Assembly (NCBI RefSeq): GCF_011306175.1 | Contig: NZ_CP049913.1 | Span: forward strand, 2,356,001 to 2,420,000 | Origin: Vibrio sp. HDW18 | Lineage (GTDB): Bacteria; Pseudomonadota; Gammaproteobacteria; Enterobacterales; Vibrionaceae | Length of the DNA stretch: 64,000 nucleotides | Reading direction: 5' to 3' | Shown here: positions 29,381 to 64,000 of the stretch, in pieces | Numbering within the stretch: the stretch's first letter is position 1 | Layout: each line of letters starts with the position of its first letter | Translations under genes and position numbers: made by a program | Notes under the pieces: model-generated | Database searches by the model: none | Told to the model about the DNA's origin: nothing | Seen by the model: the letters and a program-made list of their open reading frames with translations, nothing else

Positions 29381-29508
29381 TATACCCTTCCTACTTGAAG
29401 CTGCAGCGGTGTTAGCTACGTTCGTTCACCCCAATCACAGAGTTTGTCTATGCTCATGGGGACTCACTCACTTGCCGCCTACCTGCAACTCCAAGTTGTT
29501 TGGGTATA
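29381..29508. repeat. ERIC (intergenic repeat unit), full-length copy
   Basis: A 128-bp imperfect palindrome with TATACCC/GGGTATA ends and ERIC core segments (TTCACCCCAATCACA, CATGGGGACTCACTCACTTG, GCCGCCTACCTGCAACTCCAAG). It sits between convergent genes, 11 bp from the META lipoprotein stop. It is the same size as the copy at 48665 and lies in the opposite orientation. Confidence 0.85.
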
Positions 29509-29519
29509 ACAACGCAAAA

Positions 29520-59458: not shown

Positions 59459-59483
59459 TTCTTATCACGATTTAACAACTCTA

Positions 59484-59508
59484 GCCTCCGCCAAGCGGGG
59501 GCTTTTTT
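59484..59508 (+). terminator. Intrinsic terminator after nhaA
   Basis: GCCTCCGC pairs with GCGGGGGC (8 bp, one wobble, CAA loop) followed by TTTTTT, 26 bp after the stop. Confidence 0.9.
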
Positions 59509-59703
59509 ATGGCTGATTTTTTTGAATATCCTACAATTTGTTGTCTTTGATGATAGCCAACCGGAACGGGGATAACTTGAGTCCACTTAGGCAAAATAAG
59601 TCATGTGCGGGCTTATAACTTTTTGTATCAATTAGACCCTATGACTGATGCGAATAAGTATTAAAAACGATTGCGCTTGACTTTCCTTTTATGCTAATGT
59701 TCG

Positions 59704-59850
59704 CGCCAATCTCAGACTGAGCTTCTGGGGGACACGCGTGGTGACCATTCAGGCTGATTGTGACATCACGTAGGGTAGGTATCGACAAGTCCTTTTGTCG
59801 ATAGACGGGATACTCTTGCTGCGAAGCAGCATGTGCATGGGAAACCCAAC
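59704..59850 (+). ncRNA. Structured leader RNA of the norspermidine operon (DABA-DC-AT motif candidate)
   Basis: A compact set of hairpins in the leader of the diaminobutyrate aminotransferase/decarboxylase gene. CGTGGTG (59737-59743) pairs with CATCACG (59764-59770). TATCGACAA (59780-59788) pairs with TTGTCGATA (59795-59803). TGCTGC (59817-59822) pairs with GCAGCA (59826-59831), and TGGG with CCCA (59838-59848). Two similar short inverted repeats, TCAGACTGA and TCAGGCTGA, could pair with each other. I recall a comparative-genomics RNA named DABA-DC-AT, reported upstream of exactly these genes in Vibrio. Gene context supports this, but I cannot align to the model here. A cis-regulatory, possibly ligand-binding role is inference. 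Confidence 0.6.
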
Positions 59851-59938
59851 ATTGAACTCACTTAACTTATGCATACTAATCAGCTTTGTACTTCCTCTTT
59901 GTCCTGTTCAACAGGATCGCAGTATTACAGAACCTTGA
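59837..59938 (+). CDS. Possible 33-codon upstream ORF in the norspermidine leader
   Basis: An open frame from ATG 59837 (or in-frame ATG 59831) to TGA 59936-59938. It begins right after the TGCTGC/GCAGCA hairpin and encodes MGNPTLNSLNLCILISFVLP followed by LCPVQQDRSITEP. No clear Shine-Dalgarno is seen. Its last third overlaps a small hairpin TCCTGT/ACAGGA (59902-59916). It resembles the layout of polyamine-sensing leader peptides such as SpeFL, but could be chance. Confidence 0.2.
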   Translation: MGNPTLNSLNLCILISFVLPLCPVQQDRSITEP

Positions 59939-59984
59939 TCACCTGATTTAGCACAATTTCGTCATATCAACCATGACCCAAATT

Positions 59985-60007
59985 CCGGTTTGCTTTAGCA
60001 AACACGG
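59985..60007 (+). promoter_or_regulatory. Attenuator-like hairpin before the norspermidine genes
   Basis: CCG-GTTTGCT-TT-AGCAAAC-A-CGG forms a 10-bp stem with one bulged A, 73 bp before the start codon, followed by GCCATTTT. It could act as a weak terminator or an anti-structure to the upstream RNA; there is no long T run. Confidence 0.4.
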
Positions 60008-60079
60008 GCCATTTTGCTATTCGTTTTTTCACTACCTTCTCAAGAAAAGCGAAAATAAATCATCTCAAGGGGAAACAAG

Positions 60080-62965
60080 ATGAGTACAGCCTTTGAAGTC
60101 GATAACCACATCGCAACTTTATTTTCAACTCAAGTACCGTTATTAGACGGTCTTTACGATCTCACTCCTGATCAAGTGCTGCTGGATCAAGCTGCACACG
60201 AATCGGAAGTGCGTTCATACCCACGCCGCATTCCAATCGCGATTAAACAAGCTTACGGCTGTTTAGTTGAGGATACTCGTGGACAGATTTTCTTGGACTG
60301 TTTAGCTGGTGCGGGCACACTAGTGCTTGGCTATAACCATCCAGAAATCAATCAGGCGCTGAAATCACAGCTCGATTCGGGATTGCCGTATCAGACGCTG
60401 GATATTGCCACACAAGCGAAAACCCATTTCATCAAAACGGTAAAAGGCTTTCTACCAAAAGCGTTGGCTGATGATTGTGTGATCCAGTTCTGTGGGCCAT
60501 CGGGTGCCGATGCGGTTGAAGCGGCGATTAAACTGGCCAAGCAAACCACTGGTCGTAACACCATGTTTGCTTTCCGCGGCGCATACCATGGGATGACTAA
60601 CGGTACTATGGGTATGATGGGCAACCTAAATACCAAAGCACGTCGTACTGGGCTAATGTCGGATGTGCACTTTATGCCATTCCCTTACAGCTTGCGCTGC
60701 CCGTTTGGTTTAGGTGACGATGAAGGCGCAAAAGCCAGCATTCGCTACATTGAGCGTCTGCTGAACGATGATGAAGCGGGGATCATGAAACCGGCTGCGA
60801 TCATTGTTGAACCAGTACAAGGTGAAGGCGGGGTGATCCCTGCGCCAGCCTTCTGGTTGCGTGAACTGCGTCGTATCTGTGATGAACACGGCATTTTACT
60901 GATTTTCGATGAAATTCAATGCGGTGTCGGCAAAACCGGTCACAACTTCGCGTTTGAAGAATCGGGTATTATTCCGGATGTCCTGTGTTTATCCAAAGCT
61001 ATCGGTGGCGGTTTGCCAATGTCGATCTTAGTGATCAACAAAAAGCACGACACATGGCGACCAGGCGAGCACACCGGTACTTTCCGTGGCAACCAATTAG
61101 CCATGGTTTCAGGTGCTAAAGCGTTGGAAATTATTCAACGTGATAACCTAGTTGAGCATGCACGCGTTGCGGGTCAATATTTGCGTGCCGGTCTGGAAAA
61201 AATCCAAAGCCGAGTTAACTGCATCGCCGAAGTGCGTGGTAAAGGTTTGATGCTGGGTCTGGAAATTAAAGATCCAAGTGGTGAACTGAACCAATTTGGC
61301 GAGCCAAAATCAGCCCCACAACTGACCCTTGCTATTCAACGTGCAGCGCTTGAACGCGGTTTGATGGTTGAAAAAGGCGGGCGTGATGGCTCGGTGATCC
61401 GTTTCCTTCCTCCGGTCATTATCTCGTTTGAGCAGTTGGATTTTGCGCTACGCGTATTAGAAGAAGCGATGTTGGCCGCTGGTGGCGGTAAAAAAGATCC
61501 TGAGCCGGCTAACCAAGAGTGGAAAAAACACTTCATTCATACCGGCCACATGGGTAGTCAAGAGTTCGCACAAGTGATGAACCATACCACGGCAGCGATG
61601 AAAGCGGTGTTTGAAGAGGTGAAAGCCCCTTATTCAGGTATCGATCCGAAAGCGCTGGAAGAAGCGATTTACGCGGTGGATCTGGATAACAAAAATGCTT
61701 CCTTAAAAGCCGTAATTTCTGAAACCGCGGAGCTGGTGGCGAAAAACTCGATCATGGTGCAGCATCCTGACTGTATTGCGCATCTGCACACGCCACCTTT
61801 GATGCCATCGGTGGTCGCGGAGGCGATGATTGCCTCACTCAACCAATCCATGGACTCATGGGATCAATCTTCTGCTGCGACCTTCGTTGAGCAGAAAGTG
61901 ATTGATTGGATGTGTGAAAAATATCAGCAGGGCGCACAAGCGGACGGTATTTTCACCAGTGGCGGCACGCAGAGTAACCAAATGGGTCTAATGCTGGCGC
62001 GTGATTGGATTGCCGATCGCCTCAGTGGCCACTCAATTCAGAAATTGGGTCTGCCTGACTATGCGGATAAACTGCGTATTGTGTGCTCGAAGAAATCGCA
62101 TTTCACCGTGCAAAAATCCGCATCTTGGATGGGACTGGGCGAGAAAGCCATTCTGGCGGTTGATGCATTGCCAAACGGCACGATGGATGTGAGTCAGTTG
62201 GAAGCGGTTGTTACACAAGCAAAAGCGGAAGGTCTCATTCCGTTTGCGATTGTGGGAACTGCAGGTACGACCGATCACGGTGCGATCGATGATTTAGCGA
62301 CGATTGCTGATGTTGCAGAAAAACACACACTGTGGATGCACGTTGACAGTGCTTATGGTGGTGCGTTAATCCTTAGCAGCCATAAAGATCGTCTAACTGG
62401 GATTGAGCGTGCGCAATCGATCAGTGTCGATTTCCATAAGCTGTTTTTCCAAACCATTAGCTGTGGCGCGTTGTTGCTTAAAGACAAGCATAACTTTAAG
62501 TACCTGCTACATCATGCAGACTACTTAAACCGTGAGCATGATACGTTGCCAAACTTGGTGGATAAGTCGATTTCAACCACCAAACGTTTTGATGCGCTAA
62601 AAGTGTTTATGACCATGCAAAACGTCGGCCCGCAACAACTGGGTGCGATGTATGATCATTTGTTGGCTCAAACGCTAGAGGTGGCGGAATTGGTGCGTCA
62701 GCATCCAAGCTTTGAACTGTTAGCCGAACCTTCACTATCGACGGTATTGTTCCGCACGGTCAATGAGAAGGCGTCCGATCTGGATGAGCTTAATAAAGTG
62801 GTGCGTCTACAGGCATTGGTGCGCGGTGTAGCCGTGCTGGGTGAAACGATTGTGGATGGCAAAACCGCTTTAAAATTCACCATATTGAACCCATGCTTGC
62901 AGATGTCGGATTTCGAATCGCTACTGGCGAAAATTGAAACGCTAACCGCTGAACTAGCGAACTAA
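60080..62965 (+). CDS. Fused diaminobutyrate-2-oxoglutarate aminotransferase / L-2,4-diaminobutyrate decarboxylase
   Basis: First steps of norspermidine synthesis: aspartate semialdehyde is transaminated to L-2,4-diaminobutyrate, which is decarboxylated to 1,3-diaminopropane. The 961-residue protein is a natural fusion. Residues ~1-460 are a class III aminotransferase (FCGPSGADAVEAA, LLIFDEIQCGVGKTG, PLP Lys306 in CLSKAIGGGLP). Residues ~480-960 are a group II PLP decarboxylase (TSGGTQSNQMGLMLARDW, HVDSAYGGALIL, PLP Lys787 in SVDFHKLFFQ). It corresponds to the fused V. cholerae protein next to nspC. AAGGGG precedes the ATG. It is the first gene of the operon, behind a ~600-bp structured leader, and 13 bp separate it from the next gene. 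Confidence 0.95.
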   Translation: MSTAFEVDNHIATLFSTQVPLLDGLYDLTPDQVLLDQAAHESEVRSYPRRIPIAIKQAYGCLVEDTRGQIFLDCLAGAGTLVLGYNHPEINQALKSQLDSGLPYQTLDIATQAKTHFIKTVKGFLPKALADDCVIQFCGPSGADAVEAAIKLAKQTTGRNTMFAFRGAYHGMTNGTMGMMGNLNTKARRTGLMSDVHFMPFPYSLRCPFGLGDDEGAKASIRYIERLLNDDEAGIMKPAAIIVEPVQGEGGVIPAPAFWLRELRRICDEHGILLIFDEIQCGVGKTGHNFAFEESGIIPDVLCLSKAIGGGLPMSILVINKKHDTWRPGEHTGTFRGNQLAMVSGAKALEIIQRDNLVEHARVAGQYLRAGLEKIQSRVNCIAEVRGKGLMLGLEIKDPSGELNQFGEPKSAPQLTLAIQRAALERGLMVEKGGRDGSVIRFLPPVIISFEQLDFALRVLEEAMLAAGGGKKDPEPANQEWKKHFIHTGHMGSQEFAQVMNHTTAAMKAVFEEVKAPYSGIDPKALEEAIYAVDLDNKNASLKAVISETAELVAKNSIMVQHPDCIAHLHTPPLMPSVVAEAMIASLNQSMDSWDQSSAATFVEQKVIDWMCEKYQQGAQADGIFTSGGTQSNQMGLMLARDWIADRLSGHSIQKLGLPDYADKLRIVCSKKSHFTVQKSASWMGLGEKAILAVDALPNGTMDVSQLEAVVTQAKAEGLIPFAIVGTAGTTDHGAIDDLATIADVAEKHTLWMHVDSAYGGALILSSHKDRLTGIERAQSISVDFHKLFFQTISCGALLLKDKHNFKYLLHHADYLNREHDTLPNLVDKSISTTKRFDALKVFMTMQNVGPQQLGAMYDHLLAQTLEVAELVRQHPSFELLAEPSLSTVLFRTVNEKASDLDELNKVVRLQALVRGVAVLGETIVDGKTALKFTILNPCLQMSDFESLLAKIETLTAELAN

Positions 62966-62978
62966 AGGTAAAGGAATT

Positions 62979-64000
62979 ATGTCTATTCTACAGATTGGTG
63001 CAGGCGGTGTTGGTTGGGTAGTGGCACATAAAGCTGCACAAAACAACGACGTACTGGGTGATATTACGATTGCATCTCGCTCGATTGCGAAGTGTGAAAA
63101 AATCATTGAGTCGATTAAAGGTAAAAACAACCTGAAAGACTCGACCAAGAAACTAGAAGCGCGTCAGGTTAACGTTGATGATAGCGAATCATTGGTGCAA
63201 CTGATTAATCAAGTTAAGCCGGATTTAGTCATCAATGCTGGGCCACCTTGGGTCAATGTTGCGATTATGCAAGCTTGCTACCAAGCCAAAGTATCTTATT
63301 TAGACACTTCAGTTTCGGTCGACTTATGCTCCGAAGGCCAGCAAGTTCCTGAAGCGTATGACGCACAATGGGCGTTTCGTGACAAATTTAAGCAAGCAGG
63401 GATCACCGCGATTTTAAGCGCGGGGTTTGATCCCGGTGTGGTCAGTGTATTTGCTGCCTACGCGGCCAAATATTTGTTTGACGAAATCGACACCATTGAT
63501 GTGTTGGACATTAATGCGGGCGATCATGGCAAGAAATTCGCCACCAACTTTGACCCTGAAACCAACTTGTTGGAAATTCAAGGAGACTCCATCTATTGGG
63601 ATCAAGGCGAGTGGCAGCGTGCCGCTTGCCACACTCGTATGCTGGAGTTTGATTTTCCTAAATGTGGCAAATTCAAAGTTTACTCAATGTCGCACGACGA
63701 ATTGCGCTCGTTAAAAGAGTTTATTCCGGCTAAGCGTATTGAGTTTTGGATGGGTTTTGGCGATCGCTACCTCAATTATTTCAATGTGATGCGCGATATC
63801 GGTTTGTTAAATCCAGCGCCGTTGACCTTGCAAGATGGTACGGTGGTTAAGCCGCTACAGGTGTTAAAAGCCATGTTGCCCGATCCCACTTCGTTGGCTC
63901 CGGGCTATACAGGCCTGACTTGTATTGGTACTTGGGTGCAAGGTAAAAAAGATGGTCAAGCACGTAGTGTATTTATCTACAACCATGCTGATCATCAAGT
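62979..64000 (+). CDS. Carboxynorspermidine synthase (dehydrogenase), 3' end outside window
   Basis: NADPH-dependent reductive condensation of diaminopropane with aspartate semialdehyde to carboxynorspermidine, a step between the fused enzyme upstream and the decarboxylase NspC expected just downstream. 340 codons are visible and the frame is open to the window edge (family about 410). It belongs to the saccharopine dehydrogenase-like family: the Rossmann start is MSILQIGAGGVGWVVAHKA, then VINAGPPWVNVAIMQACYQ and ILSAGFDPGVVSVFAAYAAK. AAGGAA precedes the ATG at good distance. It shares an operon with the upstream gene. Confidence 0.93.
   Translation, partial: MSILQIGAGGVGWVVAHKAAQNNDVLGDITIASRSIAKCEKIIESIKGKNNLKDSTKKLEARQVNVDDSESLVQLINQVKPDLVINAGPPWVNVAIMQACYQAKVSYLDTSVSVDLCSEGQQVPEAYDAQWAFRDKFKQAGITAILSAGFDPGVVSVFAAYAAKYLFDEIDTIDVLDINAGDHGKKFATNFDPETNLLEIQGDSIYWDQGEWQRAACHTRMLEFDFPKCGKFKVYSMSHDELRSLKEFIPAKRIEFWMGFGDRYLNYFNVMRDIGLLNPAPLTLQDGTVVKPLQVLKAMLPDPTSLAPGYTGLTCIGTWVQGKKDGQARSVFIYNHADHQ

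Follow-up and report, generated by a model that had tools for sequence, protein, structure and literature searches.

The leader of the fused diaminobutyrate aminotransferase/L-2,4-diaminobutyrate decarboxylase gene (DABA AT/DC; the main gene) in Vibrio sp. HDW18 contains a DABA-DC-AT RNA and, directly behind it, a conserved 28-codon open reading frame (ORF). We propose, with a probability of roughly one-half, that this leader is a two-stage cis-regulator in which the fold of the RNA gates translation of the leader peptide and a ribosome at the leader stop codon opens the start of the main gene. The RNA family is already known, and the conserved leader peptide and the probable relay are an extension of that family. 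The DNA analyzed is a window of 64,000 nt (GCF_011306175.1, NZ_CP049913.1, positions 2,356,001 to 2,420,000 of the forward strand), to which all coordinates refer. The features are as follows.

59671 to 59700, + strand: predicted promoter, from sequence and positional conservation in 118 distinct loci
59706 to 59851, + strand: DABA-DC-AT RNA (RF02951), by cmscan (149.2 bits; E = 6.3e-36)
59711 to 59729, + strand: helix P1, from the covariance-model alignment of 100 sequences
59736 to 59771, + strand: helix P2, from the same alignment
59751 to 59760, + strand: P2 loop segment AGGCUGAUUG, complementary to leader-ORF codons in a fixed register
59780 to 59803, + strand: helix P3, from the same alignment
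59807 to 59847, + strand: P4 region, with a basal helix that has no counterpart in the Rfam model and an apical hairpin at 59816 to 59831
59807 to 59809 with 59845 to 59847, + strand: P4 basal helix (GGG with CCC; also U59811-A59842, C59813-G59840, and U59814-G59839), from covariation in 100 sequences
59839 to 59842, + strand: leader-ORF Shine-Dalgarno sequence GGGA, 9 nt upstream of the UUG and part of the P4 basal helix
59852 to 59938, + strand: leader ORF, 28 codons with a UUG start, MNSLNLCILISFVLPLCPVQQDRSITEP-UGA, from comparison of 145 loci
59877 to 59886, + strand: leader-ORF segment UAAUCAGCUU (codons 9 to 12), partner of the P2 loop in a fixed register
59933 to 59938, + strand: CCUUGA, the last two leader codons (Pro-stop), complementary to the main-gene Shine-Dalgarno region
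59939 to 60079, + strand: spacer of 141 nt with two to three local hairpins and no intrinsic terminator by consensus scan
60065 to 60070, + strand: UCAAGG, Shine-Dalgarno region of the DABA AT/DC gene, complementary to 59933 to 59938
60080 to 62965, + strand: DABA AT/DC gene, by NCBIfam
62979 to 63998, + strand: carboxynorspermidine synthase gene, cut by the window end, by NF043000

The original prediction, made from the sequence, placed the leader ahead of a norspermidine operon, and the NCBIfam assignments agree: a diaminobutyrate transaminase and L-2,4-diaminobutyrate decarboxylase is followed by carboxynorspermidine synthase. The main gene scores 518 bits against TIGR00709 (above the cutoff) and 399 bits against NF052646 (below the cutoff of 900). 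The synthase scores 714.9 bits over positions 1 to 340 of the 405 in NF043000, the cutoff of 800 being missed because the gene is cut at the window end. Upstream of the leader lies nhaA (by NCBIfam). From the predicted start at about 59706 to the main-gene ATG at 60080, the leader is about 375 nt long. An intrinsic terminator as expression platform was rejected, as a consensus scan found none within the leader; its sole match was a terminator-like hairpin at 59483 to 59503, behind nhaA.

The prediction was also right in identifying the RNA as DABA-DC-AT. The RF02951 match is full length, without truncation, and far exceeds the gathering cutoff of 56.1 bits; it is the single match to this family in the genome, and no other Rfam family matched this leader at gathering cutoffs. 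At these cutoffs, the window as a whole had one further Rfam match, to V_AS5 (RF02818), at 29385 to 29509 on the minus strand (102.8 bits; cutoff, 96). The DABA-DC-AT RNA was reportedly discovered by Weinberg et al. in 2017. To our knowledge, it is an orphan candidate with no known ligand, and we found no paper on its ligand in the open-licence literature searched.

RF02951 was found in 288 of 329 Vibrionaceae genomes, with one match in each, and the main gene (E ≤ 1e-100) in 292. RNA and gene matches co-occurred in 287 genomes, with a gene match only in five (G427, G428, G438, G457, and G625), the RNA only in one (G219), and neither in 36, the negatives being partly deduced. The gene matches of G457 and of G399, the latter counted as having both, are likely only paralogues, and the G625 gene begins at the edge of a contig. 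Rescanning 40 of the 41 Vibrionaceae genomes without the RNA under lax settings returned nothing above the cutoff. Of 394 genomes sampled evenly across the order, 32 carried the RNA, all of them Vibrionaceae.

A tblastn match to the main protein lay downstream of the RNA, within the fetched flank, in 84 of 85 loci. The remaining locus (L065) retains, by eye, only a remnant in which the start of the DABA gene runs into the last part of a sequence resembling carboxynorspermidine synthase; its leader ORF is intact. In two loci (L029 and L092), the operons are decayed, the gene matches are fragments, and the leader ORF is lost. This loss, along with the tight linkage of the RNA to one gene, speaks against the leader being a platform for processing or protein binding (for example, a source of small RNA from the 5′ untranslated region [UTR]) that involves no switch. 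In favor of such a platform, the 5′ UTR is long and conserved and has a promoter-like element that is itself conserved; we regard this explanation as very improbable. In two other loci, RNA and leader peptide are intact and the decarboxylase half of the gene is kept, with the aminotransferase half mostly (L026) or entirely (L066) gone; because RNA and leader persist there, a sensor specific to the aminotransferase step is disfavored.

For comparison, we used 145 loci from the 288 RNA-positive genomes, a nonrandom sample of the best-scoring places, chosen weaker ones, and other genera. Duplicates (L099, L105, and L111) were dropped, as were the partial locus L093 from some counts and nine loci from one alignment; L091, which fell below the nhmmer cut, was read by eye. 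Alignment A1 comprises 27 sequences chosen mostly among loci with the motif UCAGC, so its pseudoknot counts are biased. Alignment A2 comprises 100 of the 145 loci, chosen by us and including loci without UCAGC.

In the 100 sequences, double changes were observed at all six base pairs of P1, seven of the eight in P2, and seven of the nine in P3. Over the whole structure, including the newly added helices, 96.3% of cells pair, compared with 86.6% in shuffles, and 394 cells are double changes, compared with 80.4 in shuffles. The hairpins originally seen at 59737 to 59848 are real, being covered by the P1 to P4 helices with conserved pairing. The original prediction was to be given up if a covariance-model search gave no hit and the stems showed no compensatory changes; both checks were run, and it stands because a match above the cutoff and many compensatory changes were found. 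Its further claim that the leader holds far more structure than a simple 5′ UTR is not supported by the folding energies, which are ordinary both for 411 nt of leader (z = −0.87; stability matched or exceeded by 22 of 100 shuffles) and for the 146-nt RNA (z = −1.19; matched or exceeded by 26 of 200 shuffles). The case for the predicted structure is made by conservation and not by stability, comparison being its sole basis.

Past the Rfam end, a short ORF was first seen in the DNA of 33 loci. An automatic search recovered a leader ORF that starts near the RNA end and ends in Glu-Pro-stop in 140 of 144 loci, or 142 of 145 when L122 (a truncated match) and L091 were added by inspection. The exceptions are the two decayed operons and L130, in which, by eye, the reading frame of ITEP is uninterrupted but not in phase with the AUG of that locus. 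In the window, the RF02951 match ends just before the UUG, and the peptide ends in Ile-Thr-Glu-Pro-stop. The original reading of the leader thus had the RNA family right but took in only half of the element, overlooking the leader ORF, its largest feature. The hairpin that it placed at 59902 to 59916 falls within this ORF, and the one at 59985 to 60007 is a spacer hairpin with counterparts only in close relatives (two clades, by eye). A conserved long structure of the spacer was likewise rejected, as the two clades compared by eye have only clade-level hairpins.

Among 132 distinct leader-ORF sequences, the start codon is UUG in 95, GUG in 26, and AUG in 11, and the stop codon is UGA in all but one (131 UGA; 1 UAA). 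Pro (three codons), Glu (two codons), and Thr (four codons) are present in 132 of 132 and Ile (three codons) in 131 of 132. Since the search demanded an ORF ending in EP, the invariance of Glu and Pro is partly built in, which does not hold for Ile, Thr, the place of the start codon, or the low failure rate. In 131 of the 132 sequences, all variation in the four sense codons before the stop is synonymous, the exception being one Ile-to-Leu change, and pairwise comparison of 46 distinct five-codon tails gives 517 differences at the first codon position, 513 at the second, and 2,540 at the third. An in-frame AUG at 59837 to 59839 lies inside the RNA tail (AUGGGAAACCC); by eye it is not kept in all lineages, and it could be an alternative leader start in Vibrio. 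Neither the leader peptide nor its coupling was found in the open-licence literature or the family libraries searched, and the accessible parts of PMC10308900, PMC5646818, and PMC11531321 hold nothing on this leader.

A short ORF between promoter and regulated gene, conserved most strongly at its C terminus, is what characterizes arrest-peptide leaders. The peptide itself might be the sensor, detecting a polyamine or diaminobutyrate within the ribosome and arresting at Pro-UGA like TnaC, SpeFL, and probably MdtU, with the RNA binding no ligand and setting only the rate of leader initiation. The strict conservation of SITEP/IITEP-stop while the N terminus drifts fits this explanation, as do two precedents: arrest of TnaC occurs at a UGA codon while Pro24 occupies the P site (PMC8429421, as far as accessible), and MdtU is a spermidine-responsive upstream ORF (uORF) in which the segment encoding the conserved C terminus overlaps the sequence predicted to pair with the mdtJI ribosome binding site (PMC7815308, as far as accessible). 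However, the 146-nt RNA is conserved far past the needs of an initiation region, and the direction of the response is awkward, as arrest by the end product would switch a biosynthetic operon on. Nor is there any likeness to MdtU by eye, and three of the leader peptides had no NCBIfam or Pfam match at E ≤ 1. We consider a sensing peptide rather unlikely.

The two-stage reading draws on three contacts that connect the RNA, the leader ORF, and the main gene. The first is the P4 basal helix, whose bases are unpaired in the Rfam structure line. GGG pairs with CCC in all 100 sequences of an alignment that was built with a model knowing GGG:CCC and one further pair and whose fit favors that structure. 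In the same sequences, the pair 59813-59840 is C-G in 76, U-A in 17, and U-G in 3. With a one-base gap moved to another position, a second flanking pair changes as well, being U-A in 79 and C-G in 16. The C-G/U-A change is visible already in an unfitted MAFFT alignment of 27 sequences (C-G, 21; U-A, 5; other, 1). The leader Shine-Dalgarno sequence within this helix has GAGGA or AAGGA at the equivalent place in most loci of other genera. Together with its spacer, this Shine-Dalgarno sequence makes up the conserved 3′ end of the Rfam model, GGGAAACCCAACA or (G)AGGAACCCAACA. Comparison of loci shows this predicted helix, as it does the RNA and the leader ORF.

The second contact joins the P2 loop to codons 9 to 12 of the leader ORF. 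Among 131 distinct loci, GCUGA in the loop and UCAGC in the ORF are both present in 109 and both absent in 16, with the ORF motif only in 4 and the loop motif only in 2, one of which (L121) has a mis-trimmed start. The 16 loci without either motif belong to seven genera by code (g1, g2, g116, g121, g123, g124, and g125). Contiguous in-register pairs form a run of at least five in 84 of 100 loci and of four in 3, with none in 13; in L071, UAAGU faces ACUUA in the same register (by eye). Summed complementarity is 8.0, a modest excess over mononucleotide shuffles of every third locus (mean, 7.2; maximum, 7.5). The co-loss counts are uncorrected for phylogeny and the pairs mostly invariant; classical covariation is scarce because the central pairs hardly vary where present. 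This pairing is supported, less firmly than the basal helix. It also bears on a long-range pair between TCAGACTGA and TCAGGCTGA in the original prediction, which we do not retain: TCAGACTGA lies inside P1, and TCAGGCTGA overlaps the P2 loop at 59751 to 59760, which matches 59877 to 59886 instead. A contact between CAAUC at the 5′ end of the RNA and GAUUG in the P2 loop was also rejected, as L022, L025, and L064 lack GAUUG yet retain CAAUC (by eye).

The third contact would pair the Pro-stop codons of the leader with the Shine-Dalgarno region of the main gene. In 86 of 137 loci, UCAAGG begins 13 to 17 nt upstream of the ATG, with one more occurrence far upstream in L081. Across the window and twelve further stretches of its genome, it was found upstream of 1 of 208 other ORFs, with AAGG upstream of 41. 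Seven leaders end in CCC-UGA: by eye, five with near-identical peptides (L134, L135, L137, L138, and L160) face UUUAGGG, and of the remaining two, L030 fits partially (AAAGGGU) and L156 does not fit. In L026, the codon is CCG without a matching change, which breaks the pairing. Covariation was rejected as proof of this contact because partners swapped between species score almost equally (observed, 5.76; swaps, mean of 5.69 and maximum of 5.77; letter-shuffled tails, 3.54). The predicted pairing probability is modest, with a mean of 0.30 versus 0.14 with the interior shuffled; in 54 of 85 loci, the value is above that of the locus's own control. Of the other-genus loci listed, only L064 has UCAAGG near the ATG, and this part may for that reason be confined to Vibrio and the lineages closest to it. 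Pairing in most Vibrio loci is supported, with the same lesser firmness as the second contact.

That the partner-swap control was not exceeded would also suit a classical riboswitch whose target is the main gene, or transcription via Rho or RNase, and in which the leader ORF only keeps Rho off and the CCUUGA-UCAAGG match is due to chance. Rho sites are C-rich and G-poor, and so is the leader ORF (24.9% C and 13.4% G in 127 distinct loci), which likewise suits this alternative, as does the lack of an intrinsic terminator in the leader by consensus scan. Such a riboswitch nevertheless leaves unexplained both the conservation of ITEP-stop and the position of the leader Shine-Dalgarno sequence inside the RNA fold, and in the window's locus, the main ATG lies 228 nt past the RNA end. 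We judge it unlikely, more so than the sensing peptide.

The transcript probably begins near the first base of the RNA, as promoter-like positions are conserved at a fixed distance from it. The predicted promoter consists of TTGCGC (59671 to 59676), an 18-nt spacer, and an extended −10 element with TG at 59692 to 59693 and TAATGT at 59695 to 59700; it ends 6 nt before the RNA and would start transcription at about 59706 to 59708. In 118 distinct loci, the positions of a TTGCCA-like element and of TGnTAnnTT are 47 to 99% conserved at a fixed distance; relative to the C of CAAUC, these include T at −35 (99%), TG at −15/−14 (90 to 92%), TA at −12/−11 (93 to 98%), and T at −7 (98%). The prediction relies on conservation only, since a consensus promoter scan reported no promoter here.

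In the two-stage regulator that we favor, the DABA-DC-AT RNA would be transcribed first and fold with the leader Shine-Dalgarno sequence held in the base of P4, the P2 loop would pair with leader codons 9 to 12, and leader translation would be shut. A pathway metabolite, preferably norspermidine or 1,3-diaminopropane, would stabilize this shut fold. When the leader is translated, a ribosome at Glu-Pro-UGA, a putative slow or arrest-prone termination site, would cover CCUUGA, which then could not pair with UCAAGG; the main Shine-Dalgarno sequence would be open and DABA AT/DC made. When it is not, CCUUGA would pair with UCAAGG, the C-rich, G-poor leader RNA would be exposed to Rho, and the operon would be off. 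Rho may add to the effect because the leader ORF resembles Rho sites in composition. In this relay, we infer the ligand, the direction of the response, the stalling, and the part of Rho. We hypothesize a switch for diaminopropane, norspermidine, or diaminobutyrate, for which the simplest logic would be that norspermidine or 1,3-diaminopropane acts through the RNA to repress the operon in a feedback loop.

More tentatively, and with some doubt, the leader could represent a new composite class of control in which an RNA binding norspermidine or 1,3-diaminopropane regulates the start of a leader peptide, and the ribosome at its Pro-stop opens the gene start, the last two leader codons serving as an anti-Shine-Dalgarno sequence. 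If the output of the RNA is leader-peptide translation rather than translation of the main gene, a main-gene reporter on a truncated leader would miss the response, and the full leader with its peptide would be the right construct. Norspermidine is described, in the accessible part of PMC10914755, as a cell-lysis signal for biofilm formation in Vibrio cholerae; if true, the relay would tie this signal to a feedback circuit that is testable in cis.

Parts of this architecture have counterparts elsewhere. RF02951 (Rfam type Cis-reg) has the same gene downstream and the same P1 to P3, but the model stops at the base before the leader start codon, excluding the leader peptide, and its structure line has neither the P4 basal helix nor the contact between P2 loop and ORF. 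The odc1 motif (uORF-25-1) of alphaproteobacteria, ahead of ornithine decarboxylase, is the nearest described architecture, judging from the accessible part of PMC8632094: it likewise combines a polyamine synthesis gene, an RNA holding the ribosome binding site, a UUG start, and a conserved short uORF after the RNA. Its peptide, however, has 11 amino acids, its main start codon lies 2 nt behind the uORF start codon, and its structure and taxa are different, whereas the leader peptide here has 28 amino acids and ends 141 nt before the main ATG.

The mdtU-mdtJI leader of E. coli, as far as PMC7815308 is accessible, resembles the present one in its polyamine gene, in a uORF with a conserved C terminus, and in a C-terminal coding region predicted to pair with the ribosome binding site of the gene, Rho being involved in the mdtU case. 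The mdtU stop codon lies 106 nt before the gene (141 nt here), the accessible part mentions no upstream structured RNA family, and E. coli MdtU (MDNLFRTLFSTFTHLRTSSTILLVGEQHWRNAL) ends in NAL-stop, without the ITEP end or any shared sequence by eye. TnaC, a short leader peptide ending in Pro-UGA with RF2 (PMC8429421, in part), shares the Pro-UGA, and SpeFL is likewise a short leader peptide (PMC7815308, in part). Unlike in these two, a structured RNA family directly precedes the leader here, and arrest and ligand are putative here. The spermidine riboswitch, a SAM-I variant, is like the proposed switch a polyamine-responsive leader, and norspermidine was active in its transcription assay, but it is a different RNA family, and V. 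cholerae is named as not carrying it (PMC10853860, accessible part).

Three gene-positive genomes without RF02951 carry other sequences upstream of the DABA AT/DC gene. In Photobacterium damselae (G438) and Photobacterium sp. JCM 19050 (G428), whose loci (L096 and L097, respectively) also lack the ITEP leader, a nearly identical element of about 80 nt (GGTAAGCGGC...CTGATGACCAGCATTGCGGGGTCAACTT...) lies about 70 to 170 nt upstream of a diverged DABA AT/DC copy and is followed, by eye, by a hairpin that would cover the Shine-Dalgarno sequence of the gene. The element had no Rfam match at E ≤ 5 and no plasmid match, and a pattern derived from it matched in 2 of 329 Vibrionaceae. An 18-mer scan of GTDB returned 11 stretches, of which 2 are the known loci and the other 9 have no wider resemblance by eye. 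This element is a candidate for a second, unrelated switch for the DABA AT/DC gene. In the third genome (G427; locus L095), a 23-codon ORF ending in His-Thr-Ile-Pro-UGA was seen by eye upstream of the gene and may be a degenerate leader or a chance occurrence.
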